DNA of 64,000 bases, from positions 124,001 through 188,000 of the forward strand of contig NZ_QAOW01000009.1 in assembly GCF_003051005.1 (NCBI RefSeq), written 5' to 3'. The translations under genes were made by a program, and so were the position numbers. The stretch comes from Rhodococcus sp. OK519. GTDB lineage: Bacteria > Actinomycetota > Actinomycetes > Mycobacteriales > Mycobacteriaceae. Under the pieces are notes generated by a model. That model saw only the letters and a list, made by a program, of their open reading frames with translations, was not told where the DNA came from and made no database searches. This document shows, piece by piece, positions 13,335 through 28,613 of the stretch; the first letter of the stretch is position 1; every line of letters starts with the position of its first letter.

Positions 13335-14114
13335 GTGATCTCCGCCCGCGCACCGCGCGTGACCCGCCACTTCGCCCGCCGCGCGACCCTGAAGCGGTCC
13401 GTCGGACTGCTCAGTGACTTCCGGTACGAGCAGACCGAACCGGACCTGTTCTACGGCGCGCTCGCCCGCGACTCCGTCGAGTTGATCGGCGATCTCCACC
13501 GCGGCCTCACCGACGCCGACCTCACCGGCACCACCGTCCTCGACGTCGGCGGCGGCCCCGGCTACTTCGCGGACGCCTTCGGCAAGGCCGGCGCCCGGTA
13601 CGTCCCGGTCGAACCCGATCCGTCGGAGATGCACGCGGCCGGGCTCAGCGTCGGCGACTCGGTTCGCGGGTCCGGCCTGGCACTGCCGATCCGCACCGAC
13701 GCCGTGGACGTGTGCTTCTCGTCGAACGTCGCCGAGCACGTGTCCCAGCCGTGGGTGATGGCCGAGGAGATGCTGCGCGTCACCAAGCCCGGCGGCCTGA
13801 TGGTGCTGTCGTACACGCTGTGGTGGGGCCCGTTCGGCGGCCACGAGACCGGTCCGTGGCACTACCTCGGCGGCGAGTACGCGGCGCGGCGCTACCGGCG
13901 CAAGCTGGGCAAGGAGCCGAAGAACCGGTTCGGCGTGTCCCTCTTCGACATCGGCGCGAAGGACGGCCTGCGCTGGGCGAAGGAGCAGACCGGCGGCGAG
14001 GTCCTGGCCGCGTTCCCCCGCTACCACCCGCGCTGGGCGTGGTGGATGGTGAAGATCCCGGTGCTGCGAGAGTTGCTGGTCAGCAACCTCGTCCTGGTCG
14101 TCCGCAAGCACTGA
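13335..14114 (+). CDS. Class I SAM-dependent methyltransferase (Rv0224c-like)
   Basis: 259 residues. Motif I is VLDVGGGPGYFADAFG (about 68-83), followed by acidic strand 2 (VPVEPDPSEMHAAG) and the post-motif region VDVCFSSNVAEHV of methyltransferase type 11. The basic N-terminus may contact membrane lipid. GTG 13335 is chosen: the upstream open frame is antisense to the glycosyltransferase, and homologues of about 254 residues are expected. Order and family match Rv0224c as I recall, so an envelope sugar or lipid may be the substrate. Its last 35 bp overlap the convergent hydrolase gene, which marks the left edge of the catabolic block. Confidence 0.85.
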   Translation: MISARAPRVTRHFARRATLKRSVGLLSDFRYEQTEPDLFYGALARDSVELIGDLHRGLTDADLTGTTVLDVGGGPGYFADAFGKAGARYVPVEPDPSEMHAAGLSVGDSVRGSGLALPIRTDAVDVCFSSNVAEHVSQPWVMAEEMLRVTKPGGLMVLSYTLWWGPFGGHETGPWHYLGGEYAARRYRRKLGKEPKNRFGVSLFDIGAKDGLRWAKEQTGGEVLAAFPRYHPRWAWWMVKIPVLRELLVSNLVLVVRKH

Positions 14115-15330
14115 GCGCGTCGGCGAGTGCGACAGCGCCGGCCTCGGCATCATCGACCTCGACGTGTTCACTGGGCGAGTGCGAGACCCCTGACGGATTG
14201 CGGACGAAGAGCATCGCGGTGGGCACGGAGTCCTTGAGAACACCCGCATCGTGTCCCGCACCGGTGCCGAGCACCGGAGCGTCCGACAAGGTCGCGACAA
14301 GGACGTCGCGGAGTCCGGCGTCGAAGTCGACGGTCGGGCTGAACGACTCCTCGACCAGTACCGCGTCGCAGCCTTCCTCTGCGGCGAGCAGGATCGCGGC
14401 CTGACGGACCTGCTCCACCAGGACGGTCGTCACCGTGTCGTCGGGGTGGCGCACGTCGACCCACAGGTCTACCCGGGAAGCGATGACGTTGGTGCCGCCC
14501 GGCGTGGGAACCAGCCGACCGACCGTGGCGCGGGCGGCGGAATGCCCACGGGCGAGATCCCTGATCCGTGACACCAACCGGCCCGCCGCGACCATCGGAT
14601 CGCGGCGATCACACATCAGCGTGGTCCCGGCGTGATTGCCCTCGCCGGCGATCGTCACCCGCCACCGACCGTGCCCCAGGATGGACGATGCCACCGCGAC
14701 CGGTCGGTCGAGGTCGATCAGGCCGCGTCCCTGCTCCACGTGCAACTCCACGAACACTGCCATTCGCGCCAGCGCCTCGGGGTCGGGACCGAGGTGCGCC
14801 GGATCGAGCCCGCCGCGGGCAACGATCTCCGCGAAGGTGTTTCCGTCGGCATCGGTCAGCGCCCGGGCCCGATCGGGATCGATGGCTCCGGTCATCAGTC
14901 GGGACCCGAGGCAGGCCACCCCGAATCGCGACCCCTCCTCCTCGGGGAACACCACGATGGCGAGGGGTCGCCGGCCCAACGCTCCACGGCGGCGGAGAAC
15001 ATCGAACGCCACCAGCGCCGACGCCACCCCGAGAGGTCCGTCGAACGCGCCGCCGCCGGGCACCGAATCCAGGTGACTACCGGTGACGATCGCGTCGTCG
15101 TGAGACCCGTCAGGTGCATGCCAGGCCCAGATCGCACCGTTGCGATCGACCTCCACCTCCAGGCCGCGCTTCTCGGCGTGCGCGATGAACCACTCCCGCA
15201 GTTCGTGTTCGGCCGACGAGTGGACCGGTCGGGAGTATCCGCCACGCTGCGGGTCCCGTCCGATGTCCTCGATCTCCGCCAGCAGACCGGAGACCGTGTC
15301 GCCCTCGACCGCTGCAACCTTGTCGCTCAT
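14080..15330 (-). CDS. M20 Zn-dependent hydrolase, allantoate/N-carbamoyl-amino-acid hydrolase type
   Basis: A 416-residue binuclear-metal amidohydrolase of the HyuC/AllC group, which removes carbamoyl or ureido groups or opens related amides. Metal ligands are visible: H86 and D88 in GSHLDSVPGG, D97 in AFDGPLG, the E130-E132 cluster in FPEEEGSRFG, and H197 in ELHVEQG. A later His in GEGNHAGTT lies in the dimerisation/substrate domain. It is the last gene of the leftward operon; its ATG overlaps the stop of the FAD oxidoreductase by 4 bp (ATGA). The substrate is unknown but is probably the nitrogenous product of the upstream enzymes. Confidence 0.88.
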   Translation of the reverse strand: MSDKVAAVEGDTVSGLLAEIEDIGRDPQRGGYSRPVHSSAEHELREWFIAHAEKRGLEVEVDRNGAIWAWHAPDGSHDDAIVTGSHLDSVPGGGAFDGPLGVASALVAFDVLRRRGALGRRPLAIVVFPEEEGSRFGVACLGSRLMTGAIDPDRARALTDADGNTFAEIVARGGLDPAHLGPDPEALARMAVFVELHVEQGRGLIDLDRPVAVASSILGHGRWRVTIAGEGNHAGTTLMCDRRDPMVAAGRLVSRIRDLARGHSAARATVGRLVPTPGGTNVIASRVDLWVDVRHPDDTVTTVLVEQVRQAAILLAAEEGCDAVLVEESFSPTVDFDAGLRDVLVATLSDAPVLGTGAGHDAGVLKDSVPTAMLFVRNPSGVSHSPSEHVEVDDAEAGAVALADALSACGRPGRGC

Positions 15331-16496
15331 CGCATCTCACCCGCTCCCACGTACGGGTGCAGGCTGGACAGCAACTGCCCCTCGGCGAACCGTTCGAGCC
15401 GGAAGTCCGCCGCCGGGACATCCGTGTCCCGGCTGTCTCCGTCGACGATCAGGTCGGCCATCAGATCGCCCACCGCCGGGCTGATCTTGAATCCGTGACC
15501 GCTGAACCCGGCGGCGAGGAACAGCCCGTCGATCGGTGCCGGCGCGATGACCGGATTCCAGTCCGGGGTGATGTCGTAACAGCCCGCGTAGGTGTGTGCC
15601 ACCGATGCGTCCGGGAAGTCGAAGCGGTGCAACATCTTTGTTGCGGCCCGCTCCATCCCCGCCTCGCTGGCCTGATTGGAGTACGCGTCCGGGTCTGCGT
15701 ACTTGGGTGTGCTGTGGTCGCTGTTGCCGACCAGCAGCTCACCGGAGCCTTCGATTCGCACGTACTGCAGGCTCACCAGGTCCGACAGGGCAGGCAGGCC
15801 ACGTAGGGGTTCACCGGCGTCGACCATGAGCAGTTCGGAGCGCAGCGCTTCGATCGGCAGGTCGATGCCGACATCCGCCATCAGCCTGCCGGACCACCAC
15901 CCGGAGGCGACGACCACGGCGTCCGCCTCGAGGACCTCGCCGCTCGTCAGCTCCACACCGGTGGCGCGGTCTCCCGAGGTCAGCACCCGCGCCACGGGGG
16001 TGTTCTGCCGGACCTTCGCACCGGCAGACCGCGCCACCGCCCCGAAGTGCAGGGCGAGCTGGGAGGCATCCGCGTATCCACCGCGCGCCTCGTAGGAGAA
16101 GGCCGCGATGTCGTCGACGTTGAGCTGCGGCCACAATCCGGTCGCCCGTTCGTGGTCGATCATCTCCGCTTCGATCCCGAGCGACTGGTGCACGGCGGTG
16201 TTCGCGCGCAGCGCCTCCTCGTTCTCCGGCCCGACGGCGACCATGTAGCCCACCTGCCGGAACCCGACCTCGTCACCCAAGCGCTCGAAGGTCGGCAGGC
16301 TGCGCCACGCCATCGCGGCGATCGACGGGACGCCGTAGTGACAACGCACGATCCCGCTCGACTTGCCGGTCCCGCCGCTGGCGAGACTGTGGCGTTCGAG
16401 CACGAGTACCTCGCTGACGCCTCGCTCGGTGAGGGCGCGGGCGATCGACAGCCCGATCAGCCCACCCCCCACCACGATCACGCGCCGACCGGTCAT
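15327..16496 (-). CDS. FAD-dependent amine/amino-acid oxidoreductase (DAO, SoxB-like)
   Basis: A 389-residue DAO-superfamily flavoprotein. The FAD dinucleotide motif is VVVGGGLIGLSIARALTERG near residues 8-26; the motif LERHSLASGGTGKSSG and the C-terminal DGLFLAAGFSGHGFKISPAVG are typical of sarcosine/dimethylglycine/D-amino-acid oxidase relatives. It would oxidise a secondary or primary amine to imine with release of an aldehyde or keto acid. Both ends overlap neighbours by 4 bp (flavin reductase upstream, Zn-hydrolase downstream), so it is translationally coupled. Iminodiacetate-type oxidases belong to the same superfamily, but specificity is not determinable here. Confidence 0.87.
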   Translation of the reverse strand: MTGRRVIVVGGGLIGLSIARALTERGVSEVLVLERHSLASGGTGKSSGIVRCHYGVPSIAAMAWRSLPTFERLGDEVGFRQVGYMVAVGPENEEALRANTAVHQSLGIEAEMIDHERATGLWPQLNVDDIAAFSYEARGGYADASQLALHFGAVARSAGAKVRQNTPVARVLTSGDRATGVELTSGEVLEADAVVVASGWWSGRLMADVGIDLPIEALRSELLMVDAGEPLRGLPALSDLVSLQYVRIEGSGELLVGNSDHSTPKYADPDAYSNQASEAGMERAATKMLHRFDFPDASVAHTYAGCYDITPDWNPVIAPAPIDGLFLAAGFSGHGFKISPAVGDLMADLIVDGDSRDTDVPAADFRLERFAEGQLLSSLHPYVGAGEMR

Positions 16497-17086
16497 GACA
16501 ATGCTCCTTCAGATGCTGTGGAACCGACGGTGCTCGTCGGTACGGGCCCGTCGACACCGCTCGTCGGTACGGGCCCGTCGACACCGCTCGGCGACAGGGG
16601 CACGAGGGCGCGGACGCTGCCGGCGAGGTACACCAGCGGCTCGCGTTCGGTGTCCGCCTCGAGCCCGAGCACCCGGAGCAGCACGATGGTGTGGTCGCCC
16701 CCGGGCAGCAGGCTCTGCAGTTCACACTCGAGCCACACGCCGGCGCCCCTCACGAGCACGGCACCCTCCGGCGTCACCAGCGTCGCGATGTCGGCGAACC
16801 GGTCTCCCCCCTTCGATCCGAGGGCGCGACACACCGACCCCTGGTCCGCCGCCAGCACGCTGACGCCGAGGCGCGGCGCATCCTGCAGGCGCCGCCAGGT
16901 ACGCGAGCCGTTCATGACGCACACCGACACGAGCGGCGGATCCAGCGAGACCGCGGTGAACGAACTCGCGGCCATGCCGACCACCTCGCCCTCCAGTTCC
17001 GCGCACACCGCGGTGACCCCGGAGGCGATGTTCGCGAATGCAGCCCGCACCGCCGTCGGGTCGGTGCCGGTGGTGATTGATTTCAT
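16493..17086 (-). CDS. Flavin reductase (DIM6/NtaB family), monooxygenase component
   Basis: A 197-residue protein of the flavin-reductase-like FMN-binding domain family. Visible motifs are ASGVTAVCA, GMAASSFTAVSLDPPLVSVC (about 37-56) and GGDHTIVLLRVLG near 130. Such enzymes supply reduced flavin to a partner monooxygenase. The gene lies 54 bp after the acyl-CoA-dehydrogenase-fold gene, which lacks the dehydrogenase catalytic Glu, so the two probably form a two-component monooxygenase. GGGAGC precedes ATG 17086. The C-terminal tail contains a duplicated nine-residue unit (GVDGPVPTS twice), from a 27-bp tandem repeat. Confidence 0.85.
   Translation of the reverse strand: MKSITTGTDPTAVRAAFANIASGVTAVCAELEGEVVGMAASSFTAVSLDPPLVSVCVMNGSRTWRRLQDAPRLGVSVLAADQGSVCRALGSKGGDRFADIATLVTPEGAVLVRGAGVWLECELQSLLPGGDHTIVLLRVLGLEADTEREPLVYLAGSVRALVPLSPSGVDGPVPTSGVDGPVPTSTVGSTASEGALS
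16532..16590. repeat. 27-bp in-frame tandem duplication in flavin reductase tail
   Basis: Two identical 27-bp copies (16532-16558 and 16559-16585) plus five bases of a third encode repeated GVDGPVPTS in the dispensable-looking C-terminal tail. This is probably replication slippage. Confidence 0.92.
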
Positions 17087-17140
17087 GAGCGTGCTCCCAT
17101 GTCGTGATGTATCGAAGTCGGAGTGGCGCGGCGTGAACGG

Positions 17141-18316
17141 TCAGTCCTGGGCGGGAGTCAGGCCACCGTTTCCGTTGACCGAGAATCCCTGGGAGAGCAG
17201 GGATGCCCCGAGGTTGCGGGTGTAGTTGTCCACCCGGTAATGCAGCGAGAACGCGCGGGTGTCGCGGTAGAAGCGCTCCAGCGGGTAGGTCTTGAACATC
17301 GAGCGCGATCCGCAGATGTCGAGGCACCGCTGCGTGATCTCGAGGGCGACCGCCTTGGCGACGGTGAGCGCGTGGACTCCGCGGAACTCGCCCTCCGATC
17401 GCTGGCCGGCGTCCCACGCGGCGGCCGCGTGGAAGAGTCCCGCGCGGGCGGTCGAGAGCTTGGCGGCCAGTTCGCCGAGCTGGAACTGGATCAGTTCGCT
17501 GCCCGCCAGCTGCGGACGCTCGCGCACCCAGTCGACGGTGAAGTCGAAGGCGCCGCGGGCAGCACCGAGGTGGTTGGCCGCGAAGGCCAGCGTGAACGTG
17601 CGGGTGTCGTCGGTCTCCCACCAGCCCGGCTCACCGAAGATCGCGTCGTCGGGCAGCGCGTAGTCGGTCACCTTGACGGCCCAGCTGACCGTGGACCGCA
17701 TGCCGAGCACGTCCCAGTTGTCGATCAGCTCAACCTCGGGGACGTCGCGCGGCACGAGCACGGCGACGGTGCGGTAGTCGTAGTCCTCCGTGCCGGGCAT
17801 GGCGAGCCAGATGATGAAGTGCGAGGCGCCCGGCCCGAGGGAGGCAAAGTGCTTGGTGCAGTTGAGCACCCACTGGCCCTGCTCGTTGCGGACCAGCTGA
17901 CTGCTGGAGGTGCCGAGATTGTTCTTGCCGGGGACCGACTCACTGCCGACCGAGGCGACCAGCTCACCGGCCTCGGCGATCGGGACGACGTACTTGCGCA
18001 TCTGCTCCTCGGTAGCGGCATGCGCCAGCATGCCGAGGGCATGGGAGTGGACCTGGAACAGCTGCGCGGTCGGGGCATCGATCGCTGCTATCCGCTCGAT
18101 GAGCTCGTAGTACTCGGCGAAACCACCCTCGCTCCACAGGCCGGCGCCGCCCCACTTCTCGGGAAGCGTCAGCGCGAGCAGATCCGCCTCGTTCAGCTCG
18201 GCGAAGTTCTCGGTCGGGAAGATCGCCTCGTCGTCGTAGCGACGAGCGCGGTCGCGGAAGCCTTGGGCCAGGGCGTCGATGGCTGCGAGGCGCTTGGTCT
18301 GCTCGGGGGAGGTCAT
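17141..18316 (-). CDS. Acyl-CoA-dehydrogenase-fold flavin monooxygenase (DszC/SfnC-like), internal start
   Basis: 391 residues from an internal ATG with a strong ribosome site (GAAGGAG, 5 nt spacing). The fold is that of acyl-CoA dehydrogenases, including the C-terminal YPLERFYRDTRAFSLHYR. At the position where dehydrogenases have the catalytic Glu (IYEGTSE pattern), this protein reads SLHYRVDN, with Tyr about 360. The same replacement region is typical of DszC/SfnC-type and N-hydroxylating flavin monooxygenases. With the flavin reductase gene next door, an FMNH2-dependent monooxygenase is the best reading. There is no stop codon between the preceding MmgE/PrpD frame and this one, so a fused product is also possible. 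Confidence 0.82.
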   Translation of the reverse strand: MTSPEQTKRLAAIDALAQGFRDRARRYDDEAIFPTENFAELNEADLLALTLPEKWGGAGLWSEGGFAEYYELIERIAAIDAPTAQLFQVHSHALGMLAHAATEEQMRKYVVPIAEAGELVASVGSESVPGKNNLGTSSSQLVRNEQGQWVLNCTKHFASLGPGASHFIIWLAMPGTEDYDYRTVAVLVPRDVPEVELIDNWDVLGMRSTVSWAVKVTDYALPDDAIFGEPGWWETDDTRTFTLAFAANHLGAARGAFDFTVDWVRERPQLAGSELIQFQLGELAAKLSTARAGLFHAAAAWDAGQRSEGEFRGVHALTVAKAVALEITQRCLDICGSRSMFKTYPLERFYRDTRAFSLHYRVDNYTRNLGASLLSQGFSVNGNGGLTPAQD

Positions 18317-19732
18317 GTCTTCTCCTTCAGTGATGGTGATGGGGTCGTTGAGCGGATAGGTCAGCGGGGACAGCGGATCGACTGCGGTGAGGTCGCGGGT
18401 CACGGAAGGCAGGGGCCCGGCAGAGAAGGCGGCCCAGTGGTCGTCGGGGACGGCGGGGAACTTGGCCCGCACCACGTCCTCCCAGTACGGGTCGTCCGCA
18501 TCCCCCGCCGCGGTGCACAGGCCGCTGTCGAGCACGCGCCCGTCGGCCATCGTCACGGTGAGGCCGCTGCGGCGGACGGCGGGGAACTCGGCGTCGAGGT
18601 TCGGGTCGACGACGACGTCCACGAGGGCGGCCATCCGTGCGATCGCCGGATCACCGAGGTCGTCCGTGATCGACTCGAGCCCGAAGGCGCCGGTGGCCAG
18701 GTACGCGGCCAGCGGCCAGACCAGGTTGAACTGGGCTTCCTCGCTGGTCGACGGCACCATCCGCGCCAGGTCGGCCGCGGCCTGGAAGGTGCGCACCCGC
18801 ACGGCGGTCACCTCGTCGGGATCGAGTCGCTCCCGGCCGAGTTCGCGCAGGATCCGATCGGCACCGGTCAGCGCGGGATGTACCCAGCGGCAGCACGGGA
18901 ACGGCTTGACGTAGGTGCGCATCACGTGCCATTCGGCGCCGAGGTCGGTGCCGTCGCGGCGCGGGCGGCCGGCGACGAACTCGGAGCGGTGGGCGGTGAA
19001 GCCGGCCGCCGCGAGCTGGGCGCTGGTGACGCCGACGTGCGCTCCCCAGCCCATGGCGTCCTTGGCCATGGTGGGCTCGGCCACCGCCCGCATGATCAGG
19101 TCGACCGGCGCGTGGTACTCCGCCAACCCGAGGGCCGCGTCCACCTGCGCGGGCGACAGCTTCAGTAGACGGGCGCTCGCGGCGGCGGCGCCGACGGCCC
19201 CCCAGGTGCCACTGCTGTGGAAGAGCGGCCAGCGGTCGTGCTGCGCCATTGCAGCACGGATACCGACCTCGTAGCCGATCAGCGTGGCGAGGAGGAACTC
19301 CTCGTGGCTGGCGCCGGCCGCTTCGGCCGCCGCGAGCGCCGCCGGGATGATCACCGCTCCCGGGTGTCCCTTGGCGAGGGCGTGGCCGTCGTCGTAGTCG
19401 ACGGCGTTCATCACGGTGCCGTTCGCGAGCGCAGCGCCGGCCGCCGAGACGCGACGCCCGTCGAGCATGCAGGTGGCTTCGTTGCCACCCATCGCGGTCG
19501 TGACGTACTCGGTGATGATGCGGGCCGAGCGCAGCAGCGTGCCGGCCCGGGCCGCTACCGAGGCGTCGAGGGTGAGCATGCCCAGGCGTCGTCGCACTGC
19601 GGACGGTACCTGCTGCCAGGTAAGTCCCACGACAAACTCCAGGACGTCACTCACCGGCATATTTGCTTTATCCACAACTTGACTCGTCATATTTGCAACA
19701 CCAATCGGAAACGTCGATGTGTCGAGCGTCAT
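17141..19732 (-). CDS. MmgE/PrpD family protein, frame open into the downstream ACAD-like protein
   Basis: Residues 1-472 form a full-length MmgE/PrpD domain (VGLTWQQVPSAVRRRLGML, NGTVMNAVDYDDGHALAKGHPGA, and KPFPCCRWVHPALTGA near residue 275). The family includes 2-methylcitrate dehydratase, cis-aconitate decarboxylase and an iminodisuccinate epimerase. The start ATG 19732 overlaps the M20 stop (ATGA) and follows AGGAGG. The frame then runs without a stop through an internal ribosome site into the ACAD-fold protein, giving an 863-residue fused ORF. It may be a real fusion, a lost stop or frameshift, or two products from two starts. The first 30 codons are AT-richer than the surroundings and repeat GCAAATATG. 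Confidence 0.75.
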   Translation of the reverse strand: MTLDTSTFPIGVANMTSQVVDKANMPVSDVLEFVVGLTWQQVPSAVRRRLGMLTLDASVAARAGTLLRSARIITEYVTTAMGGNEATCMLDGRRVSAAGAALANGTVMNAVDYDDGHALAKGHPGAVIIPAALAAAEAAGASHEEFLLATLIGYEVGIRAAMAQHDRWPLFHSSGTWGAVGAAAASARLLKLSPAQVDAALGLAEYHAPVDLIMRAVAEPTMAKDAMGWGAHVGVTSAQLAAAGFTAHRSEFVAGRPRRDGTDLGAEWHVMRTYVKPFPCCRWVHPALTGADRILRELGRERLDPDEVTAVRVRTFQAAADLARMVPSTSEEAQFNLVWPLAAYLATGAFGLESITDDLGDPAIARMAALVDVVVDPNLDAEFPAVRRSGLTVTMADGRVLDSGLCTAAGDADDPYWEDVVRAKFPAVPDDHWAAFSAGPLPSVTRDLTAVDPLSPLTYPLNDPITITEGEDMTSPEQTKRLAAIDALAQGFRDRARRYDDEAIFPTENFAELNEADLLALTLPEKWGGAGLWSEGGFAEYYELIERIAAIDAPTAQLFQVHSHALGMLAHAATEEQMRKYVVPIAEAGELVASVGSESVPGKNNLGTSSSQLVRNEQGQWVLNCTKHFASLGPGASHFIIWLAMPGTEDYDYRTVAVLVPRDVPEVELIDNWDVLGMRSTVSWAVKVTDYALPDDAIFGEPGWWETDDTRTFTLAFAANHLGAARGAFDFTVDWVRERPQLAGSELIQFQLGELAAKLSTARAGLFHAAAAWDAGQRSEGEFRGVHALTVAKAVALEITQRCLDICGSRSMFKTYPLERFYRDTRAFSLHYRVDNYTRNLGASLLSQGFSVNGNGGLTPAQD

Positions 19733-20934
19733 CGGAGGTCCTCCTGATTCGGCAGGTGCACGGCAAGCTTCCCGGCGTGGCCGATGAGGGCGGCCAGCAG
19801 CGCCGTGCGCGGGACGACGGAATCGCGCGCAACCGCCTCGGCGCGGCTGCACTGGTCGAATGCGGTGGGCCCCAGACCGTCGAGCGCGAGCGGCGCGAAC
19901 TGTCCGACGAGGCTCGCATCCGAGCCGCCCGACTCGTCGATCCGGCGCAGGGCCAGGCCGGCTGCCGACGCCAGGTTCTCGGCGAGCGCGTACACCGGAT
20001 CCGTGACCGTCCGAGGAAGGGCGGGCCTGGTGATGCCGCCGGAGATCTCGACAGTGACACCGGCACCCGCACGCGCCTCGGCGCGGCGGCGCACCTCGTC
20101 GACCAGAGCCCGGCCCGCCGCGTCGTCGGGAGCCCGCAGATCGACGTGGAGTTCCGCATGGTCGGGGACGACCTGACGCGCCGTGCCGGAGCGCAGGATG
20201 CCGACGCTGCAGATGGTGCGCCTCGCTCGATCGGTGAGCGATTCGAGTTCCTCGACGAGCGGCGCCAGCGCATGCAAGGCGCTCGCTCCGGTGTCGTCGG
20301 TGCAGTGCGCCGTCCGGCCGTGCGCGGTGATGATCATGGCGCCGACCGCGCCACGAGAGACGATCACGCCCCCGTCGACCAGACCGGCTTCGAGGGCCAG
20401 GCACACATCCGTGCGGCGGCCCAGGTCCGCCAGCCAACCGCGACTGTCGACGCTGCCCAGTTCCTCGTCGGGGACCAGCGCGTAGGTGATCGATGCGACG
20501 CCCGGCACCGACGTCTCGAGCGCCGCTTCGATCGCGTGAACAGCCATCGCGAGAGCACATTTCATGTCACCGAGACCCGGCCCGGACATGGACGGCGCGT
20601 CCGTCACGATGGGCCAGTCGGCCGTCGCTCCCTCGGGCCACACCGTGTCGGCGTGCCCGAGCACGAGCAGTCGGAGCCCCGGGTCGCCGGTCTCGAGCGT
20701 GGCCTCGAACGCCTGGCCGCGGTCCGAGGCGATCGTGTGCCGGCGTGAGGTGAATCCCAGCGATTCGAGCCGCTCGGCGATCAGGTCACTCACCCGGTCG
20801 ACGCCCGCAGGAAGGAATGATCCGCTCTCGACCTCGGTGAGCCGGGTGGCCAGGTCGAGGATGCTCGGCAGCCGCGGCTCGAGCCGGGCGGCGAACTCGG
20901 CGACGGAGACGGGCGATGGTGTCGGTTCAGACAT
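19729..20934 (-). CDS. M20 family metallopeptidase, carboxypeptidase G2/ArgE-like
   Basis: 401 residues of the M20A/D type with a binuclear zinc site: H94 and D96 in GHADTVWPEG, D123 in GPGLGDMK, E157/E158 in VPDEELGS, and a late His in the C-terminal lid. Members cleave N-acyl or C-terminal amide bonds (acetylornithine, succinyl-diaminopimelate, folate glutamate). It is cytosolic; no signal peptide is visible. GGAGGAAGCC precedes ATG 20934. The start overlaps the DUF1028 stop by 8 bp and the stop overlaps the MmgE/PrpD start by 4 bp. It probably removes an acyl or amino-acid unit from the imported substrate. Confidence 0.86.
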   Translation of the reverse strand: MSEPTPSPVSVAEFAARLEPRLPSILDLATRLTEVESGSFLPAGVDRVSDLIAERLESLGFTSRRHTIASDRGQAFEATLETGDPGLRLLVLGHADTVWPEGATADWPIVTDAPSMSGPGLGDMKCALAMAVHAIEAALETSVPGVASITYALVPDEELGSVDSRGWLADLGRRTDVCLALEAGLVDGGVIVSRGAVGAMIITAHGRTAHCTDDTGASALHALAPLVEELESLTDRARRTICSVGILRSGTARQVVPDHAELHVDLRAPDDAAGRALVDEVRRRAEARAGAGVTVEISGGITRPALPRTVTDPVYALAENLASAAGLALRRIDESGGSDASLVGQFAPLALDGLGPTAFDQCSRAEAVARDSVVPRTALLAALIGHAGKLAVHLPNQEDLR

Positions 20935-21613
20935 CGGCTTCCTCCGCACCTGGGGCGACACCACGTGCGGCGTCGGGATCGATTGCGCGGCTGACATACT
21001 CGCCGGCGGCCGGGCCGTACAGCTCCCACAGTCGGCGAAGCTCGCGCAGCGGTTCCGGGTGCTCGTCGACTCGCAGGTCGACGAGCGGAAACTGTTCGCT
21101 GCCGTGCACCCGCAGGCAAGCGGACCGCAGCGGATCCGGTTCGCCGCCGGCGGCCAGACCTGCCTCCAGCGCACGCATCAGTCGCTCGCCCAGTTCCAGC
21201 CCGGCACTGCCGTCGAAGGCCGTGCTCGCGGCCCGGCCGACGACGTCACCGACGAGGATGTTGCCGGCGACGACGTGGTCGGCGGCGGTGACGACGGAAA
21301 CCCCGGCGGGGTCGACATGTGCACCCGTCCAACCGATTCCAGGTCCCCTGGTACCGATGGCCGCAAGCTGACGCCAGTCCGCGTGCACGCTCGAATGGCG
21401 CACGCCGTCGACGGCCTCGGCAGCGGTGGCTCCGCGGGCCATCAGATCGAGCAGGCGGGGTCCGAGGCGGGGGTCGGTGCGGTGCTGGGTGACGACGGCG
21501 CCGACGCCGGTGCGCAGCCACGGCACGCGGGCCCCGACGGCGACGTCGGAGGTTGCGGTCGCGACGCCGAGCTGACCGGTGACCTCGCACCGGGCCACTA
21601 TCGAATAGGTCAT
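20927..21613 (-). CDS. DUF1028 family protein (Ntn-hydrolase-like)
   Basis: 228 residues starting MTYSIVARCEVTGQLGVATA, the DUF1028 N-terminal pattern. The repeated Gly-rich strands (VGAVVTQHRTDPRLGPRLLD, AAIGTRGPGIGWTGAHV) fit the N-terminal-nucleophile hydrolase-like fold to which I recall this family being assigned. The activity is unknown; members often sit beside peptidases and amidohydrolases. ATG 21613 is chosen because it overlaps the ATPase stop as ATGA. A C-terminal extension resembles the peptidoglycan-binding-like tail seen in some members, but I am not certain of this. Confidence 0.82.
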   Translation of the reverse strand: MTYSIVARCEVTGQLGVATATSDVAVGARVPWLRTGVGAVVTQHRTDPRLGPRLLDLMARGATAAEAVDGVRHSSVHADWRQLAAIGTRGPGIGWTGAHVDPAGVSVVTAADHVVAGNILVGDVVGRAASTAFDGSAGLELGERLMRALEAGLAAGGEPDPLRSACLRVHGSEQFPLVDLRVDEHPEPLRELRRLWELYGPAAGEYVSRAIDPDAARGVAPGAEEADV

Positions 21614-22716
21614 CGGGTCACCGCCCACATGTCGGCGCTGCGCCACGACAGCCGGCACGGCGCACCGACCACGACGCTGGCGGGCAGCGTGCGGCTGGCC
21701 AGGTCGGCGGTGATCACCCGGCCGTCGGCGAGTTCGACGCGCACCGAGGTACGGGCACCGAGGAAGGCGATGTCCCGCGCGATTCCCTCGACCGAGAAGT
21801 CGGCACCCTCGGCGCCCCCGGCCTGCAGACCGACCACTTCGGGTCGCAGGATCAACGTGATGTTCTTGTCCGCCGGCACCTCACCTGCGCCGTCGACCCG
21901 CCCCTCCCCCACGCCGGGCACCGTCACGTCGAACCAGCCCGGGCCCGTCCCGGTGACAGTCCCGTCCAGGCTGTTGGAGGCGCCGACGAATCCGGCGGCG
22001 AAGCGGGTCGCCGGCTGGTGGTAGACCTCGGCGGGCGTCGCCACCTGCACCAGATCACCGTTCTGCATGAGGCCGACCCGGTCGGACATCGCGAACGCCT
22101 CCTCCTGGTCGTGGGTGACATAGACGAACGTGATGCCGAGCTCGTGCTGCACCGACTTGAGCAGCACCTGCATCTGGCGGCGCATCCGCAGGTCCAGCGC
22201 GCCGAGCGGCTCGTCCAGCAGAAGGACCCGGGGTCCGAGGACGAGCGAACGCGCCAACGCGACGCGCTGCTGCATGCCACCACTGAGCTGGCGTGGCCGA
22301 TGATTCTCCTTGCCGCTCAACTCGACCAGGTCGAGGAAACGGGACACCTTCTCCGCGACGACCTGCTTGCTCTCCTTGCGCTCGCGCAGCCCGAAGGCGA
22401 CGTTCTCGAAGACCGTCAGGTGCGGGAACAGCGCATAGTTCTGGAAGACCGTGTGCACCGGCCGCTTGTGTGGCGGCACCCCCTGGATTTCCTTGTCGTC
22501 CACGAGGATGCGTCCCGCATCGGACTGCTCGAGACCGGCGATCATCCGCAGTGTGGTGGTCTTGCCGCAGCCGCTGGGGCCGAGGAGCGAAAAGAACTCG
22601 CCTCCCTTGATGTCGAGGTTGATGCCCTTGACGACGTGGTGGTCGCCGAAGGAGCATGCGAGGTTCTCGAGCCTCAGCGAAGCCGGGCTGTAACCGGGGT
22701 CGGCGATGGTTGTCAT
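21610..22716 (-). CDS. ABC transporter ATP-binding protein, polyamine/PotA type
   Basis: 368 residues. Walker A is GPSGCGKTT (46-54), the Q-loop NYALFPHLTV follows, the signature is LSGGMQQR (144-151), Walker B is VLLLDEP (164-170), the switch His is in VTHDQEE, and a TOBE domain fills the C-terminus. It energises import of a cationic or carboxylated small molecule with the two adjacent permeases and the binding lipoprotein. ATG 22716 overlaps the permease stop by 4 bp; the frame upstream is antisense coding and was excluded. Confidence 0.93.
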   Translation of the reverse strand: MTTIADPGYSPASLRLENLACSFGDHHVVKGINLDIKGGEFFSLLGPSGCGKTTTLRMIAGLEQSDAGRILVDDKEIQGVPPHKRPVHTVFQNYALFPHLTVFENVAFGLRERKESKQVVAEKVSRFLDLVELSGKENHRPRQLSGGMQQRVALARSLVLGPRVLLLDEPLGALDLRMRRQMQVLLKSVQHELGITFVYVTHDQEEAFAMSDRVGLMQNGDLVQVATPAEVYHQPATRFAAGFVGASNSLDGTVTGTGPGWFDVTVPGVGEGRVDGAGEVPADKNITLILRPEVVGLQAGGAEGADFSVEGIARDIAFLGARTSVRVELADGRVITADLASRTLPASVVVGAPCRLSWRSADMWAVTR

Positions 22717-23525
22717 GCTGCTTCTTCTTCCGAGGTGACGCGGCGTGTCTGCTTGGAGGGCCAGAAGGAGGCCAACGCGACCAGACACATCAGGACGAGC
22801 GAGACGAACATGAAGGCGACGGCGATCGCGTTGATCTCCGGTGACGTGCCGTGGCGCGACAGGCTGAGGATGAGGACCGGTAGCGTCTCGGTCTCCGGTC
22901 CCGCCAGGAAGACGGTGCTGACGACGTCGTCGAAGGAGAACGTGAAGGACAGCAGCGCAGCGATGACGACGGCGGGCATCATCATCGGCCACAGCACCTT
23001 CAGGAACACTCGGCGCGGCGAAGCGCCCAGATCTGCCGCGGCCTCGTCGTACGTACCCGTCAGGGTCGCGAAGCGGGACTGGAGCACCAATGTCGCGTAG
23101 GCGGAACAGAACACGATGTGTCCGGCCACGACCGACCAGGTGCCGGTGGTGAGCCCGAGACGCTGGATGACCACCAGGATTCCCGCGGCGATGACGACTT
23201 CGGGGATCATCAGCCGGGCGTAGGTGAGGGTCTGCAACACGGCGCCGGCCCGCTTGGGCAGGCGGGAGACCGCCATCACCGCAGCCAGCGACAGGGCGAC
23301 CGCGACCACGGTGGACAGCAACGCGATCAGACAACTGGTGAGGAAGTCCTGACGCACCCGCGGGTCGGCGAACGCTCCGGTGATCCACTCGAGCGTCGCA
23401 CCGCCCCAGCCGACGAGGCTCTCGTCGGCGTTGAACGCGTTGACGATCACCATGCCGATAGGCAGGTAGAGGAAGGCGAGGACGGCAACTGTCACAGCCG
23501 CCGCGGGACTGATCCGGCGCTTCAT
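22713..23525 (-). CDS. ABC transporter permease, PotC-like
   Basis: 270 residues with six predicted membrane segments and the inner-membrane coupling motif EAAADLGASPRRVFLKVLWP near residue 160. It belongs to the binding-protein-dependent permease family. Start ATG 23525 overlaps the stop of the first permease (ATGA), and its own stop overlaps the ATPase start. It forms the second half of the heterodimeric channel. Confidence 0.92.
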   Translation of the reverse strand: MKRRISPAAAVTVAVLAFLYLPIGMVIVNAFNADESLVGWGGATLEWITGAFADPRVRQDFLTSCLIALLSTVVAVALSLAAVMAVSRLPKRAGAVLQTLTYARLMIPEVVIAAGILVVIQRLGLTTGTWSVVAGHIVFCSAYATLVLQSRFATLTGTYDEAAADLGASPRRVFLKVLWPMMMPAVVIAALLSFTFSFDDVVSTVFLAGPETETLPVLILSLSRHGTSPEINAIAVAFMFVSLVLMCLVALASFWPSKQTRRVTSEEEAA

Positions 23526-24469
23526 GTGATGTCCCCCAATCGATCCAGGCGCTTGCGTGAGGCGAACAGCACGGCGAGCATGACGACCATCAGCGTCGTT
23601 GCGATGGCGGCACCGAACGGATAGTTGCCGGTCGCGAGGAACTGCTCGGCCTCGACGTTGCCGACCATGAGGGTCTTGGAACCACCGAGGATGGCCGGGA
23701 TGGTGTACTCCCCGGTCGCCGGGATCCCGACCAGCAGCACGCCCGCGATGCTGCCGGGCATGGCCAGCTTCACGGTGATCTTCCAGAAGGCCCGGCGCCG
23801 GCTGAGCCCCATGTCTGCGGCCGCTTCCTGCAGGGCCGGGTCGATCCGGTCCAGCGCCATGAACATCGGCAGGATCATCAGCGGCAGGTAGCCGGCGACC
23901 ATGCCGACACCGATCGCGAAGGTGGAGTAGCCGAGCTGGGCGCCCTCCGGAACGATTCCGAAGAACGCGGCGACCTTCGAGACGACGCCGGTCGGCGACA
24001 GCAGTTCGAGCCAGGCGTAGGTGCGTACGACGAAGCTGATCCAGTACGGCACGATGACCGCGACCAGGAGCAGGGCCTTCACCCGGCCACTGGCACGGGC
24101 GATGGTGAGCGCGACCGGGAATCCGAGCACCACACACACCGCGGTCATGACGACTGTCATTGCGAGCGAACGCAACACGGCGCCGACGTAGGTGCTGCTG
24201 AAGAGCTCTCGGTAGTTCTCGAGCGTGAACCCCGACCGTACTTGGAAGGTGAGAAGGTCGAATTTCATGACGCTGTACACCGCGAGGAGCACGAGCGGGG
24301 CGACGAAGAAGGCGACGACGTACATCGTCATCGGCGCCGCGAGCAGGATTCCGGACGAGCGCCGAGGGCGTCGAGGCGCGCCTGCGCCGGTACGTGCCGG
24401 TGCGGGCGACGCACCCTCGACCCGGCGGCCCGGGGTGTCGGGGGGAGCCACTGTCGGAGCCTGGGTCAT
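23522..24469 (-). CDS. ABC transporter permease, PotB-like
   Basis: 315 residues beginning MTQAPTVAPPDTPGRR, with a disordered N-terminus, six membrane segments and the coupling motif EAAADMGLSRRRAFWKITVK near residue 210. ATG 24469 shares its A with the TGA stop of the binding-protein gene, so translation is coupled. It is the first half of the importer channel. Confidence 0.92.
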   Translation of the reverse strand: MTQAPTVAPPDTPGRRVEGASPAPARTGAGAPRRPRRSSGILLAAPMTMYVVAFFVAPLVLLAVYSVMKFDLLTFQVRSGFTLENYRELFSSTYVGAVLRSLAMTVVMTAVCVVLGFPVALTIARASGRVKALLLVAVIVPYWISFVVRTYAWLELLSPTGVVSKVAAFFGIVPEGAQLGYSTFAIGVGMVAGYLPLMILPMFMALDRIDPALQEAAADMGLSRRRAFWKITVKLAMPGSIAGVLLVGIPATGEYTIPAILGGSKTLMVGNVEAEQFLATGNYPFGAAIATTLMVVMLAVLFASRKRLDRLGDIT

Positions 24470-25521
24470 CAGGATGCCTTGATCCGGTTCCACATCTTGG
24501 CCCGCGCCTCGGTGTCCTCCGCCGACAGGAACTTCTCAGCCAGGAACTTCGAGGCCGTGTTCTGCTGGAGCGCAGGGTTTTCCAGGATCCTGGGCTCGAG
24601 GAACTGCTCGGCCGCCGGCATCAGGTAGGAGGCGCCGGTGTTGTTGATGAACCCGCCGTAGGTCTCCGGTTCGAGACGGGAATCGAGGAACCGCAGCGCC
24701 TCTTCGGTGTGCTTGCTGCCGGGCAGGAGAGCGACACCCTCGATGTAGCCGGGCGTGCCCTCCGTCGGCGAGACCCAGCCGAGCGAGGGGTCGTCGGCGC
24801 CCGCGAACGCGTAGTCGTAGCCGACCGCGATGAGCGCCGAACCGTCGGTCACCGACTTCGCCTGTCCCGTGCGCTGGAACGCGAGCAGGTGCGGCTTGAT
24901 CTCCTTGATCTTCGCCTCGGCCTCGGCGAGTTCACCGCTGTCGGTGGTGTTGATGTCGTAGCCGAGCGAGAGCAGGGCGATCGCCTGCACATCGAGGTCG
25001 TAGTCCGGCAGCACGATCTTGCCCGTCCACTGATCGGCGTTGTCGAAGAGCTCCTTCCACGACTTCGGAGGATTCGGGACCTTCTCCTTGTCGTAGATGA
25101 TCCCGACCTTGCCGAGATCGGTGGGGATACCCCACGGGAACTCGGCCCGGTATTCCTGCGGCATGTTCGCCAGGTTCGGAACCGTGGCGGGATCGAAATC
25201 GGCCAGCAGGTTACCGGCCTCCAGACGGGCGGCGGTGGCGTTGCCGACAGCGACGAGGTCGTAGACGCCCCTGTCCTTGGCCAACTGCGCAGCCAGAGCG
25301 GACGAGCCGCCGTCGGGCAACGCGAACTGCTCGATCTTGATCCCGGGGTTGGCGGCCTCGAAGTCCGCGATCTCGGTCTCTCCGACCCAGTCGCCGTAGT
25401 TGAGGAACTTCAGGGTCACACTGTCGGCATCGCCGGATCCTCCACCACACGCGGACAGCGCCGCGCCGAGCGCCACGCATGCGCTGGCGGCGGAAAGTAC
25501 TCGCAAGGTCTTGGCACGCAT
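24469..25521 (-). CDS. Substrate-binding lipoprotein of polyamine-type ABC importer (PotD-like)
   Basis: 350 residues. A signal peptide ends in the lipobox LSAC (Cys25), so the mature protein is membrane-anchored outside. The mature part has the spermidine/putrescine-binding fold (LKFLNYGDWVGETEIADFEA, DLVAVGNATAARL, PWGIPTDLGKVGIIYDKEKV). The family binds polyamines, but also other amines, opines and carboxylates. It is the first gene of the long leftward operon, with GAGGGG before ATG 25521. Two palindromes with GTTGC/GCAAC arms separate it from the divergent IclR gene. Confidence 0.9.
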   Translation of the reverse strand: MRAKTLRVLSAASACVALGAALSACGGGSGDADSVTLKFLNYGDWVGETEIADFEAANPGIKIEQFALPDGGSSALAAQLAKDRGVYDLVAVGNATAARLEAGNLLADFDPATVPNLANMPQEYRAEFPWGIPTDLGKVGIIYDKEKVPNPPKSWKELFDNADQWTGKIVLPDYDLDVQAIALLSLGYDINTTDSGELAEAEAKIKEIKPHLLAFQRTGQAKSVTDGSALIAVGYDYAFAGADDPSLGWVSPTEGTPGYIEGVALLPGSKHTEEALRFLDSRLEPETYGGFINNTGASYLMPAAEQFLEPRILENPALQQNTASKFLAEKFLSAEDTEARAKMWNRIKAS

Positions 25522-25542
25522 GACCCCTCATTTCTGTTGTCA

Positions 25543-25566
25543 TTATCGCAACCACAGTTGCCGTAT
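25543..25566. promoter_or_regulatory. Candidate IclR operator 1 (near importer promoter)
   Basis: The core GCAAC-CACA-GTTGC at 25548-25561 is a perfect palindrome, with partial symmetry extending to ttat/gtat on each side. It lies just upstream of the binding-protein gene in the divergent region. Confidence 0.5.
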
Positions 25567-25648
25567 GGACACTTGAAGTATTCGGCGGCGGTGTGCCCGG
25601 TCGGTGTCGTGATCGTTACAAGTTCGTTTCGTATGTTGCGAATAAGCC

Positions 25649-25673
25649 AATTGCTGTTGCGCCAACTGCAATT
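25649..25673. promoter_or_regulatory. Candidate IclR operator 2 (just before the regulator gene)
   Basis: A 25-bp imperfect palindrome with arms AATTGCTGTTGC and CAACTGCAATT ends next to the ATG at 25675. It shares GTTGC/CAAC elements with operator 1, which fits autoregulation and control of both divergent units. Confidence 0.5.
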
Positions 25674-25674
25674 C

Positions 25675-26484
25675 ATGACGAAAGCTCGTGCCATGCCACC
25701 CACACGCGACACCAGCATTCGCCGCGGGCTGGAAGTCCTGATGACTCTCCAGACCCGCCGCGCCCGTGAGAGCGGCGGACTCGGCGTCACTCAACTCGCC
25801 GAGATCCTCGACATGGACAAGAGCCAGATCTCGCGCAGCCTCAAGGTCCTCACCGAGTACGGCATGGTCGACCGAGACCCCAAGACACGCGCGTTCCGGC
25901 TGGGATGGCGGATCTTCAACATGGCGCAGGTCAGTGGCGACCAGCGCCTGCTGGAGTGCGCGGGCGGGGTCCTCGACGGACTGCTCAACCGACTGGACGA
26001 GTCGGTGTACCTCTCGGTGCGATCCGGATACGACGCGCTGACCGTGGCCGAGCGGACCGCCAACCACTCGATTCAGGCGATGCCCGCGCATTGGGCGCTG
26101 CATTCGACGTCCGTGGGTCGGGTACTCCTCACCGACCGAACCTCCGCCGAGATCCGCGAAATGTATGCCGGACAGCGGCTTCACAGTGCGCGCGAGGGTG
26201 GCGTCAGGTCCGTCGACGACCTCGTGGACGCCGTCTCCCGGGCCCGGGAGGACGGGTACTCCATCGTCGTGGACGAGTTCGAGGCCGGGTTGGCGGCCGT
26301 CGGCGTCCCGGTCCGTGACTATCGGGGGATGCTCATCGCCTCGCTCGGCGTCTCCGGGCCGACGTTCCGCCTGGAACCGAAGATCGAACAGGCCGTCACC
26401 GATCTACGGGAGGCCGCGCAGGAACTCGAGGACCTCCTCGCGCTCCGGAACGGTGAACGCTTCTCGCTCGGGCGGGACGCATGA
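25675..26484 (+). CDS. IclR family transcriptional regulator
   Basis: 269 residues: an N-terminal winged helix (about 33-65, LGVTQLAEILDMDKSQISRS) and a C-terminal IclR effector domain (HSIQAMPAHWALHSTSVGRV, DEFEAGLAAVGVPV). ATG 25675 and ATG 25693 are both possible; neither has a clear ribosome site. It is divergent from the importer operon and coupled by ATGA to the nitrilase gene, so it is the likely local regulator responding to the substrate or a breakdown product. Confidence 0.88.
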   Translation: MTKARAMPPTRDTSIRRGLEVLMTLQTRRARESGGLGVTQLAEILDMDKSQISRSLKVLTEYGMVDRDPKTRAFRLGWRIFNMAQVSGDQRLLECAGGVLDGLLNRLDESVYLSVRSGYDALTVAERTANHSIQAMPAHWALHSTSVGRVLLTDRTSAEIREMYAGQRLHSAREGGVRSVDDLVDAVSRAREDGYSIVVDEFEAGLAAVGVPVRDYRGMLIASLGVSGPTFRLEPKIEQAVTDLREAAQELEDLLALRNGERFSLGRDA

Positions 26485-27317
26485 GCGGGCAGGCGCACGT
26501 CGCGGTGGTGCAACTGGCTCCCCGTCTCCTCGATTTCGAAGCCAACGTGAACGCCACCGTCTGCGCGATCGAGACCGCTCGTGCGCGAGGAGCCGACATC
26601 GTCGTCCTCCCCGAGTTGTGCCTGAGCGGCTACATGTTCGACACCATGGACGAAGCCCGTTCGTGCGCAATCAAACCCGAACATCCGGTCTTCACTCGCT
26701 GGGCGCGGGCGCTCGCGGGATCTCCGGGAGTGGTCGTGGGCGGGTTCGCGGAGCGATCCGGCCCGGAGCTCCACATCAGCGCCGCGGTCGTCGACGCGAC
26801 GGGCGTCCGTGCCGTCTACCGGAAGACCCATCTGTGGAACAGTGAGAAGCGATTCTTCGCCGCAGGCACCGAGGCCCCTCCGGTCATCGACACCGCCTTC
26901 GGTCGGGTGGGCGTGCTGATCTGCTACGACCTGGAGTTCCCCGAGATGGCGCGCAGTCTGGCAATGCGGGGCGCCGACCTGATCGTCGTCCCGACGAACT
27001 GGGCACTGGACGCCCGCCCGTACGGGGACGAACCCCCGCAGGTGATGCTGGCCCGCGCCGCCGCGCGGATCAACCACGTCCATGTCGCGTGCGCGGACCG
27101 CGCCGGCCGGGAACGAGACCAGGAGTTCACGGGCGGTTCGGCCATCATCGACACGGCCGGATGGGTGCTCGACACGCCCGATGCCGACGGGTTCGCCCAC
27201 GCCACGCTGACGTTGTCGAGTGCGCGAGATCGGCAGATCTCCGGCGTCAACCACGTTTTCGGCGATCGCCGGCCCGAGCTTTACACCGAGGTGTACCGGA
27301 CCGCAGACACGGCGTGA
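26481..27317 (+). CDS. Carbon-nitrogen hydrolase (nitrilase superfamily)
   Basis: 278 residues with the Glu-Lys-Cys triad: E45 in LPELCLSGY, K115 in YRKTHLW, and C148 in LICYDLEFPE. The family hydrolyses amides, nitriles or N-carbamoyl groups in the cytosol. The length fits amidase/carbamoylase-like members. It is cotranscribed with the IclR gene (4-bp overlap), so it probably acts on a pathway intermediate such as an amide or N-carbamoyl amino acid. Confidence 0.88.
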   Translation: MSGQAHVAVVQLAPRLLDFEANVNATVCAIETARARGADIVVLPELCLSGYMFDTMDEARSCAIKPEHPVFTRWARALAGSPGVVVGGFAERSGPELHISAAVVDATGVRAVYRKTHLWNSEKRFFAAGTEAPPVIDTAFGRVGVLICYDLEFPEMARSLAMRGADLIVVPTNWALDARPYGDEPPQVMLARAAARINHVHVACADRAGRERDQEFTGGSAIIDTAGWVLDTPDADGFAHATLTLSSARDRQISGVNHVFGDRRPELYTEVYRTADTA

Positions 27318-27351: not shown

Positions 27352-28533
27352 TCAGCAGAGCCCGGATGCCCCTTCACCTGCGCCGAGTCGGTCGAAGAAC
27401 CCGACCGTGTCGTCGTAGGCTGCCGGCACCGTCGGCGTGTGCTCGAGCCCCTCGTACGTGCGATAGCCGACAGAAGATCCATTCGCGCAGAGAGTTTCGA
27501 CGAGCGCGCGTGATCCGGGTTCGGCGACTGCGGTGTCGCCGGTGCCCTGCAGGACCAGCGTGGGCACGGCGAGCTTCAGCTGCGCCGGTTCCTGCGTCTC
27601 CAGGTAGGCGACGAGCGCGTCGACGTCGGCGTCGGGCTTCATGATCCGGTCCACGGGCACGGTAGCCGCGACAGCGTCGATGGATCCGGTGCAACTCGTG
27701 TAGGCGGTATCCACGAGCGGCTTCGCGGAGTCGGCGACGTAGTCCTCGGCGCGCAGGTCAGGGTCGGCGGCCTGCGCCCCGAGCAGAATCAGTGGGAGAT
27801 AGCCGAGCGCGAGGCGCACGTCGGGCCCACCCACGGCGAAGTACTGCGGCGTCTGGCTCGTGTTGTTGCCGGGGGCGATGGCCACCGCTCCGCGCAGATC
27901 CAGTTCCGGTGCACGCTCGGCGCCCCGGGCCGCGGTGAACAGTGCCGCGTGGCCGCCCTGGCTATGTCCCGCGACGTACCAGGTCTTGCCGATCGCGGGA
28001 TCGAGAGATCGGCCGGCCCGGACGATGTCGACGACGGCGTCGGCCTCGGAATCCCCGTTGACGTAGGGATGCAGCCCCGGCGTTCCCAAGCCGACGTAGT
28101 CGGTCTGGACGACGACGTACCCGGCCTGGACGAAGCGGTCCAGCGTCTGCGAGATGTACACCAGGTACTCGCCGTCCGGGCCGTCGACGGTGCCCGAGGA
28201 CGGGGCACAGGCGTCGGCCACACCGGTGGTGCCGTGCGCCCAGCTGATCACCGGCCAGCCTCCCTCCGGCGCCGGCCCGGGAGGCATCGACACCGAGCCC
28301 GACACGACCGTGGAATTGCCCCGCGGATCCTGGGACAGATACGTGATCAGTTCGCTGCGCGCCGCGCTGGGTAGAACGGCGTTGCCGCTCAACGGCTGGC
28401 TGCTCAGCAGCTGCCCGTAGCCAGGTGCTGCCGGTGCTGCCGGTGCTTCCTCTGCCGCGCCCTGGCCGGAACAGCCGGCCACCACGAGGGCTGCGGCGAC
28501 GGCGAGCACCGCACTCATTTTCGTTGTCTTCAC
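27352..28533 (-). CDS. Secreted lipase-family lipoprotein (alpha/beta hydrolase)
   Basis: 393 residues. The signal peptide ends in the lipobox VVAGC (Cys21), and a low-complexity Ala/Pro linker follows. The nucleophile elbow is GHSQGG (Ser near 190), with an oxyanion-hole strand VISWAHGTTGVADAC. It matches secretory lipases (LIP family). GTG 28533 follows AGGAG; ATG 28518 is an alternative. It is divergent from a TetR gene, with a palindrome between them. Confidence 0.87.
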   Translation of the reverse strand: MKTTKMSAVLAVAAALVVAGCSGQGAAEEAPAAPAAPGYGQLLSSQPLSGNAVLPSAARSELITYLSQDPRGNSTVVSGSVSMPPGPAPEGGWPVISWAHGTTGVADACAPSSGTVDGPDGEYLVYISQTLDRFVQAGYVVVQTDYVGLGTPGLHPYVNGDSEADAVVDIVRAGRSLDPAIGKTWYVAGHSQGGHAALFTAARGAERAPELDLRGAVAIAPGNNTSQTPQYFAVGGPDVRLALGYLPLILLGAQAADPDLRAEDYVADSAKPLVDTAYTSCTGSIDAVAATVPVDRIMKPDADVDALVAYLETQEPAQLKLAVPTLVLQGTGDTAVAEPGSRALVETLCANGSSVGYRTYEGLEHTPTVPAAYDDTVGFFDRLGAGEGASGLC

Positions 28534-28560
28534 CCGGAGATCTCCTGTAGGTCACATAGC

Positions 28561-28578: not shown

Positions 28579-28613
28579 TCGGGCACGATAGCGCCTTTCG
28601 TAAGCTGACGGCC

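Follow-up and report, generated by a model that had tools for sequence, protein, structure and literature searches.

The described systems that come closest to the locus reported here are the N-methylglutamate pathway, in which GMAS and MgsABC are followed by an oxidation, and histidine utilization, in which HutF is followed by hydrolysis of N-formylglutamate. The locus is a catabolic block of 13.2 kb (positions 14080-27317) in a 64-kb stretch of the genome of Rhodococcus sp. OK519 (contig positions 124001-188000; genome of 5.28 Mb), the whole of which we call the window. Like putative operons of N-methylglutamate metabolism, it has a flavoprotein of one particular DAO family, and in three of those operons an M20 amidohydrolase of the same family as that of the block (NF006770; here, M20C) stands next; it differs from the pathway in having neither GMAS nor MgsABC. 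Its M20C comes from a family linked to hutF, as in histidine utilization, whereas the block itself has no hutF, and the other hut genes were not seen among its genes in the Pfam scan. This DAO-M20C pair, present also in N-methylglutamate-like operons, is the most interesting lead that the block offers.

A discrete accessory catabolic island

We took the genus to be Prescottella (the Rhodococcus equi group) because, among named genomes, the scan placed Prescottella equi DSM 20307 and Rhodococcus hoagii AcN21-7 closest to the source genome. The whole block is present between the same flanking genes in 3 of the 14 genus genomes (the source genome G000, plus G252 and G253). In the other 11, the flanking genes are neighbors without it, with the methyltransferase gene of the left flank less than 1500 bases from the ROK gene (ca. 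25 to 120 bases in eight, ca. 920 to 930 in three). The ROK gene and the adjoining aldehyde dehydrogenase gene, which form the right flank, were found in all 14. The block is either whole or absent between its flanks and is therefore a discrete island of accessory genes, its ends lying at the coordinates that a first-pass annotation had given; the same pattern agrees with the proposal, made there, of one dedicated uptake-and-degradation unit. The island is built from known kinds of parts, in a combination that we did not match to a known pathway. Open-access literature searches also turned up no pathway with this gene set, as the annotation had held, and nothing was found in them on DUF1028 or on MmgE/PrpD together with transporter, catabolism and glycine betaine.

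Gene order is identical in the three carriers, with 67 to 98% identity over the aligned parts (lowest for the flavin reductase), and IclR is 88 to 89% identical between carriers over the compared part. The arrangement is not due to chance, since two further genus genomes have the same genes in the same order. A close copy of MmgE is restricted to the same three of the 14 genomes. Searching genomes for the same gene set, as had been proposed earlier, gave these two further carriers and no copy outside the genus in the scans of 396 phylum genomes (ACAD part, i.e., the part with the acyl-CoA dehydrogenase fold) and 298 order genomes (MmgE). At E 1e-60, the ACAD part was found only in the source genome among the former, and at E 1e-40, MmgE was found in four of the latter, source genome included; the three other MmgE loci have different neighborhoods, two of them sharing an IclR gene and a carbon-nitrogen hydrolase gene with the island. 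A scan of genome contigs, which detects close relatives only, gave two loci for the ACAD part, both from Prescottella/R. hoagii. A foreign origin judged by composition was rejected, the GC content of the island being within the range of its surroundings. There were no RNA genes at the gathering threshold, and no tRNA was found in the scans. Between the nitrilase and ROK genes, the source genome has lipase-like and TetR genes (27352-29246) that are not there in the other two carriers.

Domain assignments with Pfam and NCBIfam models recovered all the families that had been named for 14080-27317, as follows.

14080..15330, minus strand: M20C, M20 amidohydrolase of family NF006770, hut-linked (591 bits, cut-off 372; neighbors and tree)
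15327..16496, minus strand: DAO flavoprotein, of the family found after putative N-methylglutamate synthase genes (PF01266; neighbors and tree)
16493..17086, minus strand: flavin reductase of HsaB/HpaC type (PF01613, 1e-35; NCBIfam models below cut-off)
17141..18316, minus strand: ACAD-fold part of a shared frame, interpreted as a flavin monooxygenase (with its own ATG, at 18316, and conserved AAGGAGAA upstream)
18317..19732, minus strand: MmgE/PrpD part of the shared frame (PF03972 and PF19305; nearest solved chain iminodisuccinate [IDS] epimerase, 2.2e-20)
19729..20934, minus strand: M20 peptidase, carboxypeptidase G2 (CPG2)-like (nearest solved chain CPG2, 1.6e-21; NF004788 169 bits, cut-off 349)
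20927..21613, minus strand: DUF1028 protein, possible N-terminal nucleophile (Ntn)-type hydrolase (PF06267, 202 bits; solved relative 2imh)
21610..22716, minus strand: ATP-binding cassette (ABC) transporter ATPase, PotA type (ABC_tran and TOBE_2; PotA models best, below cut-off)
22713..23525, minus strand: ABC permease 2, PotC type (BPD_transp_1; PotC model 173 bits, cut-off 326)
23522..24469, minus strand: ABC permease 1, PotB type (BPD_transp_1; PotB model 195 bits, cut-off 348)
24469..25521, minus strand: substrate-binding lipoprotein, PotD type (SBP_bac_8; nearest solved chains mostly PotD-type polyamine-binding proteins)
25693..26484, plus strand: IclR-type regulator, divergent (PF01614 and PF09339; start codon chosen by us)
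26481..27317, plus strand: nitrilase-superfamily carbon-nitrogen hydrolase (PF00795, 5.5e-41; 3ivz, 1.7e-41)

Ten leftward frames, the number given earlier, is correct solely through the continuous frame that joins MmgE/PrpD and the ACAD protein, which were listed there as two proteins. Eight of the nine leftward junctions overlap by 1 to 8 bases. Six are 4-base ATGA overlaps (permease 1/permease 2, permease 2/ATPase, ATPase/DUF1028, M20/MmgE, reductase/DAO, and DAO/M20C), which fits the earlier description of mostly ATGA overlaps, with IclR and nitrilase divergent on the plus strand. The binding protein and permease 1 overlap by 1 base, DUF1028 and M20 by 8, and a gap of 54 bases separates MmgE-ACAD from the flavin reductase. 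A crude scan found no sigma-70-like promoter (0.7 in shuffles), and terminator-like sites were not enriched (3 versus 3.5 in shuffles).

The DAO-M20C pair

The DAO search at E 1e-50 detected the family in 25 of the 298 order genomes, and the neighbors were examined in the 24 loci outside the source genome. An MgsC-like (glutamate-synthase-like) gene directly adjoins DAO in 18 of them. Whole operons have a type III glutamine synthetase in the GMAS position, GATase, GXGXG, and glutamate-synthase-domain genes, and then DAO. Here, the names GMAS and MgsABC were assigned from domain makeup and gene order, consistent with what the accessible part of PMC5023230 describes for a mycobacterial cluster. 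In three of these operons (L143, L144, and L146, from genomes G646, G241, and G068), an M20 of family NF006770, in all cases above the cut-off, comes right after DAO and is followed by a helix-turn-helix (HTH)-cupin regulator gene; in G172, DAO is followed by the HTH-cupin regulator without the M20. Such a hut-type M20 after DAO in putative N-methylglutamate operons may mark a variant of methylamine metabolism in which formate is released. Secondary-amine oxidases are among the members of the DAO family, and the family's tie to putative N-methylglutamate synthase genes favors the earlier suggestion that the island enzyme acts on a secondary amine. In the DAO tree (31 rows), the island copy groups with those of G646 and G241 (support 92/89). 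The source genome has GMAS/MgsABC-like genes elsewhere, ca. 9 kb from a second DAO.

The neighborhood of NF006770 was examined in 30 loci, namely the 29 best of 112 matching genomes (200 searched) plus the paralogue of the source genome itself, which sits between an NCS1 permease and hutF. A hutF gene adjoins the M20 in 29 of the 30 (L052 and L114 to L142, the exception being L141). The three DAO-linked loci, which are lower scoring, have no hutF there; the Arthrobacter copy has it. No PF05013 formylglutamase was found in the source genome, and 9 of the 31 genomes searched have one, including carrier G253 (a weak partial match). Allantoinase above cut-off was found in none of the 14 genus genomes, source included, and in 6 of all 31 searched. 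An allantoin pathway was rejected on the count for the genus. From these neighborhoods, the NF006770 enzyme beside hutF is likely a deformylase that hydrolyzes N-formylglutamate, i.e., that fills the N-formylglutamate slot of histidine breakdown, and the name allantoate amidohydrolase is probably wrong for these actinobacteria. The island enzyme, described at first as a carbamoylase-like M20, is more plausibly assigned to this hut-linked, N-formylglutamate-type family.

In the M20C tree (36 rows, L143 dropped), the island copy groups with that of G068 and with the hutF-linked Arthrobacter copy (100/100), and the G241 copy falls in a separate branch. Because the DAO-linked M20s are found in different branches, the tree suggests that the DAO and NF006770 families have come together more than once. 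Since this DAO family follows MgsC-like genes and this M20 family is linked to hutF, the pair points to an N-methyl- or N-formyl-glutamate-type intermediate that would be turned into glutamate. No mention of N-formylglutamate alongside N-methylglutamate was found in the open-access literature searched.

Shared frame, importer, and putative trimming hydrolases

The MmgE/PrpD and ACAD parts are encoded in a single frame of 863 residues (17141-19732) with no stop between them, and one stop-free frame is found in all three carriers. At the junction, the two other carriers have a 12-base in-frame deletion; AAGGAGAA, a conserved ribosome-binding-like site ahead of the internal ATG, and the ATG itself are kept in all three. 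The shared frame may be a gene fusion that has an additional start inside it, so that a fused monooxygenase and a free one of 391 residues could both arise. SfnB, DszC, and acyl-CoA dehydrogenase models match the ACAD part, all below cut-off. A Tyr of this part aligns with the Glu of solved dehydrogenases (a position covered by two of the five alignments shown) that is the catalytic base of acyl-CoA dehydrogenases, and a classical enzyme of this kind was rejected on this ground. A separate flavin reductase (PF01613) is encoded in the same operon, and one is also nearby in the three related plasmid clusters that ranked highest (the best of 1369 matching records). An ACAD-fold protein lacking the dehydrogenase base is most readily explained as a flavin monooxygenase, and we infer that it forms a two-component monooxygenase with the reductase. 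The missing Glu and the reductase of the plasmid clusters also speak for the oxygenation step of the first-pass annotation, with the two proteins as a pair. DszC, SfnB, and HsaA, two-component flavin monooxygenases of this fold, likewise have a separate flavin reductase and lack the dehydrogenase Glu; the island enzyme differs in that all models score below cut-off and in that it shares its frame with MmgE/PrpD.

The nearest solved chains to the MmgE/PrpD part are IDS epimerase (2.2e-20) and the Bacillus subtilis IRG1 (2.9e-19), two enzymes with active-site residues in common according to the accessible part of PMC7347537. As in IDS epimerase and cis-aconitate decarboxylase, both MmgE/PrpD domains are present, but the sequence is distant and the island protein shares a frame with a monooxygenase. 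For the tie to IDS epimerase that had been drawn from the family, this enzyme is the closest solved structure, at a distant similarity. AlphaFold models were of low confidence (mean pLDDT of 32 for the shared-frame protein and 36 for the binding protein, from three-row alignments).

The four importer genes have the Pot makeup with a PotD-type binding protein, although all four proteins are below the Pot equivalog cut-offs (PotA, 362 versus 482 bits; PotB, 195 versus 348; PotC, 173 versus 326; PotD, 56 versus 582). Aligned to the Escherichia coli PotD, the binding protein keeps aromatic and acidic residues at certain positions, which we take to be polyamine binding. With its PotD-type nearest solved chains, the importer is read as one of polyamine type, in keeping with the polyamine-like compound proposed at first. 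Thr2 of the DUF1028 protein is invariant in 35 of 35 aligned proteins (in two, L008 and L012, the preceding residue is not a start) and would presumably fit an Ntn-type hydrolase.

Plasmid clusters with RidA, DUF1028, M20, and an importer (Pantoea, Roseivivax, Paracoccaceae La 6, and others) resemble the island in having DUF1028 near M20, often with a polyamine-type importer. Among nine DUF1028 plasmid loci (two from Pantoea), an M20 is nearby in eight, RidA in eight, and a Pot- or ABC-type importer in six. In contrast, the ArgE-like M20s compared are just 25 to 27% identical to that of the island, which has no RidA, and the plasmids have no annotated or matched MmgE or NF006770 M20. The best plasmid match to the island M20 (41 to 42%; 42% in the comparison of clusters) is L182, from Paracoccaceae La 6, with DUF1028, PotABCD, flavin reductase, and two monooxygenases. 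The trio of RidA, DUF1028, and an ArgE-named M20 recurs on plasmids (L082, L083, and L189 to L193), often with a polyamine-type importer.

Proposed pathway and alternatives

The best explanation of the whole, tentative and somewhat short of an even call, is that the island imports a nitrogen-rich amine-type compound and degrades it to glutamate. The PotABCD-type importer would take up a cationic, amide-bearing, or N-substituted compound; DUF1028, the CPG2-like M20, and the divergent nitrilase-type enzyme would trim amide bonds; and the fused MmgE/PrpD-monooxygenase would isomerize and oxygenate the skeleton with reduced flavin from the flavin reductase. DAO would then oxidize N-methyl (or N-alkyl) glutamate, and the NF006770 M20 would take a formyl-type group off the glutamate nitrogen to give glutamate and a one-carbon acid, with IclR controlling the block. 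What the sequence shows is the unit and its genes, the shared frame, the families, and the neighborhood links; from them we infer the reactions, their order, their regulation, and glutamate as product.

Several observations weigh against this pathway. The CPG2-like M20 (19729..20934) is below the curated cut-off (NF004788), DUF1028 neighborhoods of the order outside the genus are hardly island-like (20 regions with one weak M20 match), and no single hypothesis accounts for all the island hydrolases. Six of the 24 DAO loci have no MgsC nearby, three of them being beside a GbcB-like reductase, and in the DAO tree the clade formed by the island copies is supported at only 81/67. The island genes include no GMAS or MgsABC, and none of the curated models scanned names the GMAS/MgsABC-like genes methylamine or N-methylglutamate (type III glutamine synthetase is above cut-off). 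In methylamine-using mycobacteria, the accessible part of PMC5023230 gives the N-methylglutamate dehydrogenase step to MgdA-D, candidate genes found elsewhere in the genomes, and not to such a DAO.

A breakdown of aminopolycarboxylates or opines, with MmgE/PrpD epimerizing an IDS- or opine-like secondary amine that the monooxygenase or DAO cleaves and glutamate as just one possible product, seems unlikely. IDS epimerase as nearest solved MmgE/PrpD, the secondary-amine oxidases within the DAO family, and an NtaA-named monooxygenase with M20, DUF1028, and PotABCD in L182 would fit it, but the epimerase match is nearly equaled by that of IRG1, the importer is of polyamine type, and the hut-type M20C is left unexplained. 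The pathway of nitrilotriacetate (NTA) and EDTA monooxygenases uses a luciferase-family FMNH2 monooxygenase, and none was found among the island proteins scanned. Of the candidate substrates in the first-pass annotation, the polyamine-like type suits the importer, and aminopolycarboxylates (NTA, iminodisuccinate) are favored only by the distant MmgE similarity and the NtaA-named plasmid gene. Homarine, N-methylhistidine/anserine, imidazole propionate, opines, and N-methylpyrrolidone, considered on chemical grounds, have no gene-level signature in the island and were set aside.

The MmgE/nitrilase part resembles another widespread cluster, since MmgE homologues (33 to 43% identity) have a carbon-nitrogen hydrolase nearby in 8 of the 12 loci examined, all eight with betaine-type importers. 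The island might be an actinobacterial cousin of these clusters of Paracoccus, Ancylobacter, haloarchaea, and other actinobacteria, devoted to betaine or methylated-amine breakdown, and an IclR gene is also present in the two such actinobacterial loci. We consider this improbable, given the low MmgE identity, the different importers, and the lack of DUF1028, CPG2-like M20, or NF006770 M20 alongside in the loci scanned with those queries. The widespread cluster itself (L161, L162, L047, L048, L051, and L077 to L079) combines MmgE/PrpD, carbon-nitrogen hydrolase, and betaine-type importer in actinobacteria, proteobacteria, and haloarchaea, in some cases also with DUF6282 or an amidohydrolase and with an FAD/Fe-S oxidase. 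Least probable is a ureide or hydantoin pathway in which the database name of M20C is correct and the enzyme is an amidohydrolase of allantoate or of N-carbamoyl amino acids. M20C is above the cut-offs of both NF006770 (curated as allantoate amidohydrolase) and the TIGR01879 hydantoinase/carbamoylase model, and among solved chains an N-carbamoyl-L-amino acid hydrolase comes nearest to it, but the hutF linkage of the family, the genus genomes without allantoinase, and an island with no hydantoinase count against this reading.

Returning to degradation to glutamate, a more specific version, which we put forward as a speculation with a small chance of being right, is that the DAO-M20 pair is the formaldehyde-sparing end of actinobacterial N-methylglutamate metabolism. 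DAO would convert the N-methyl to an N-formyl group, and M20 would then yield formate and glutamate. In the island, this pair would have been recruited along with the MmgE/PrpD-monooxygenase fusion and its two starts, to degrade by a new pathway an imported amine that is N-methylated or gives rise to N-formyl groups. The shared frame with its kept internal start is a natural test case of a two-enzyme frame. If the speculation is true, N-methylglutamate, N-formylglutamate, and N-formyl-N-methylglutamate would be candidate intermediates for the island, the public enzyme name allantoate amidohydrolase (NF006770) would be corrected, and the pair would be a route for recovering one-carbon units from N-methylglutamate without free formaldehyde.

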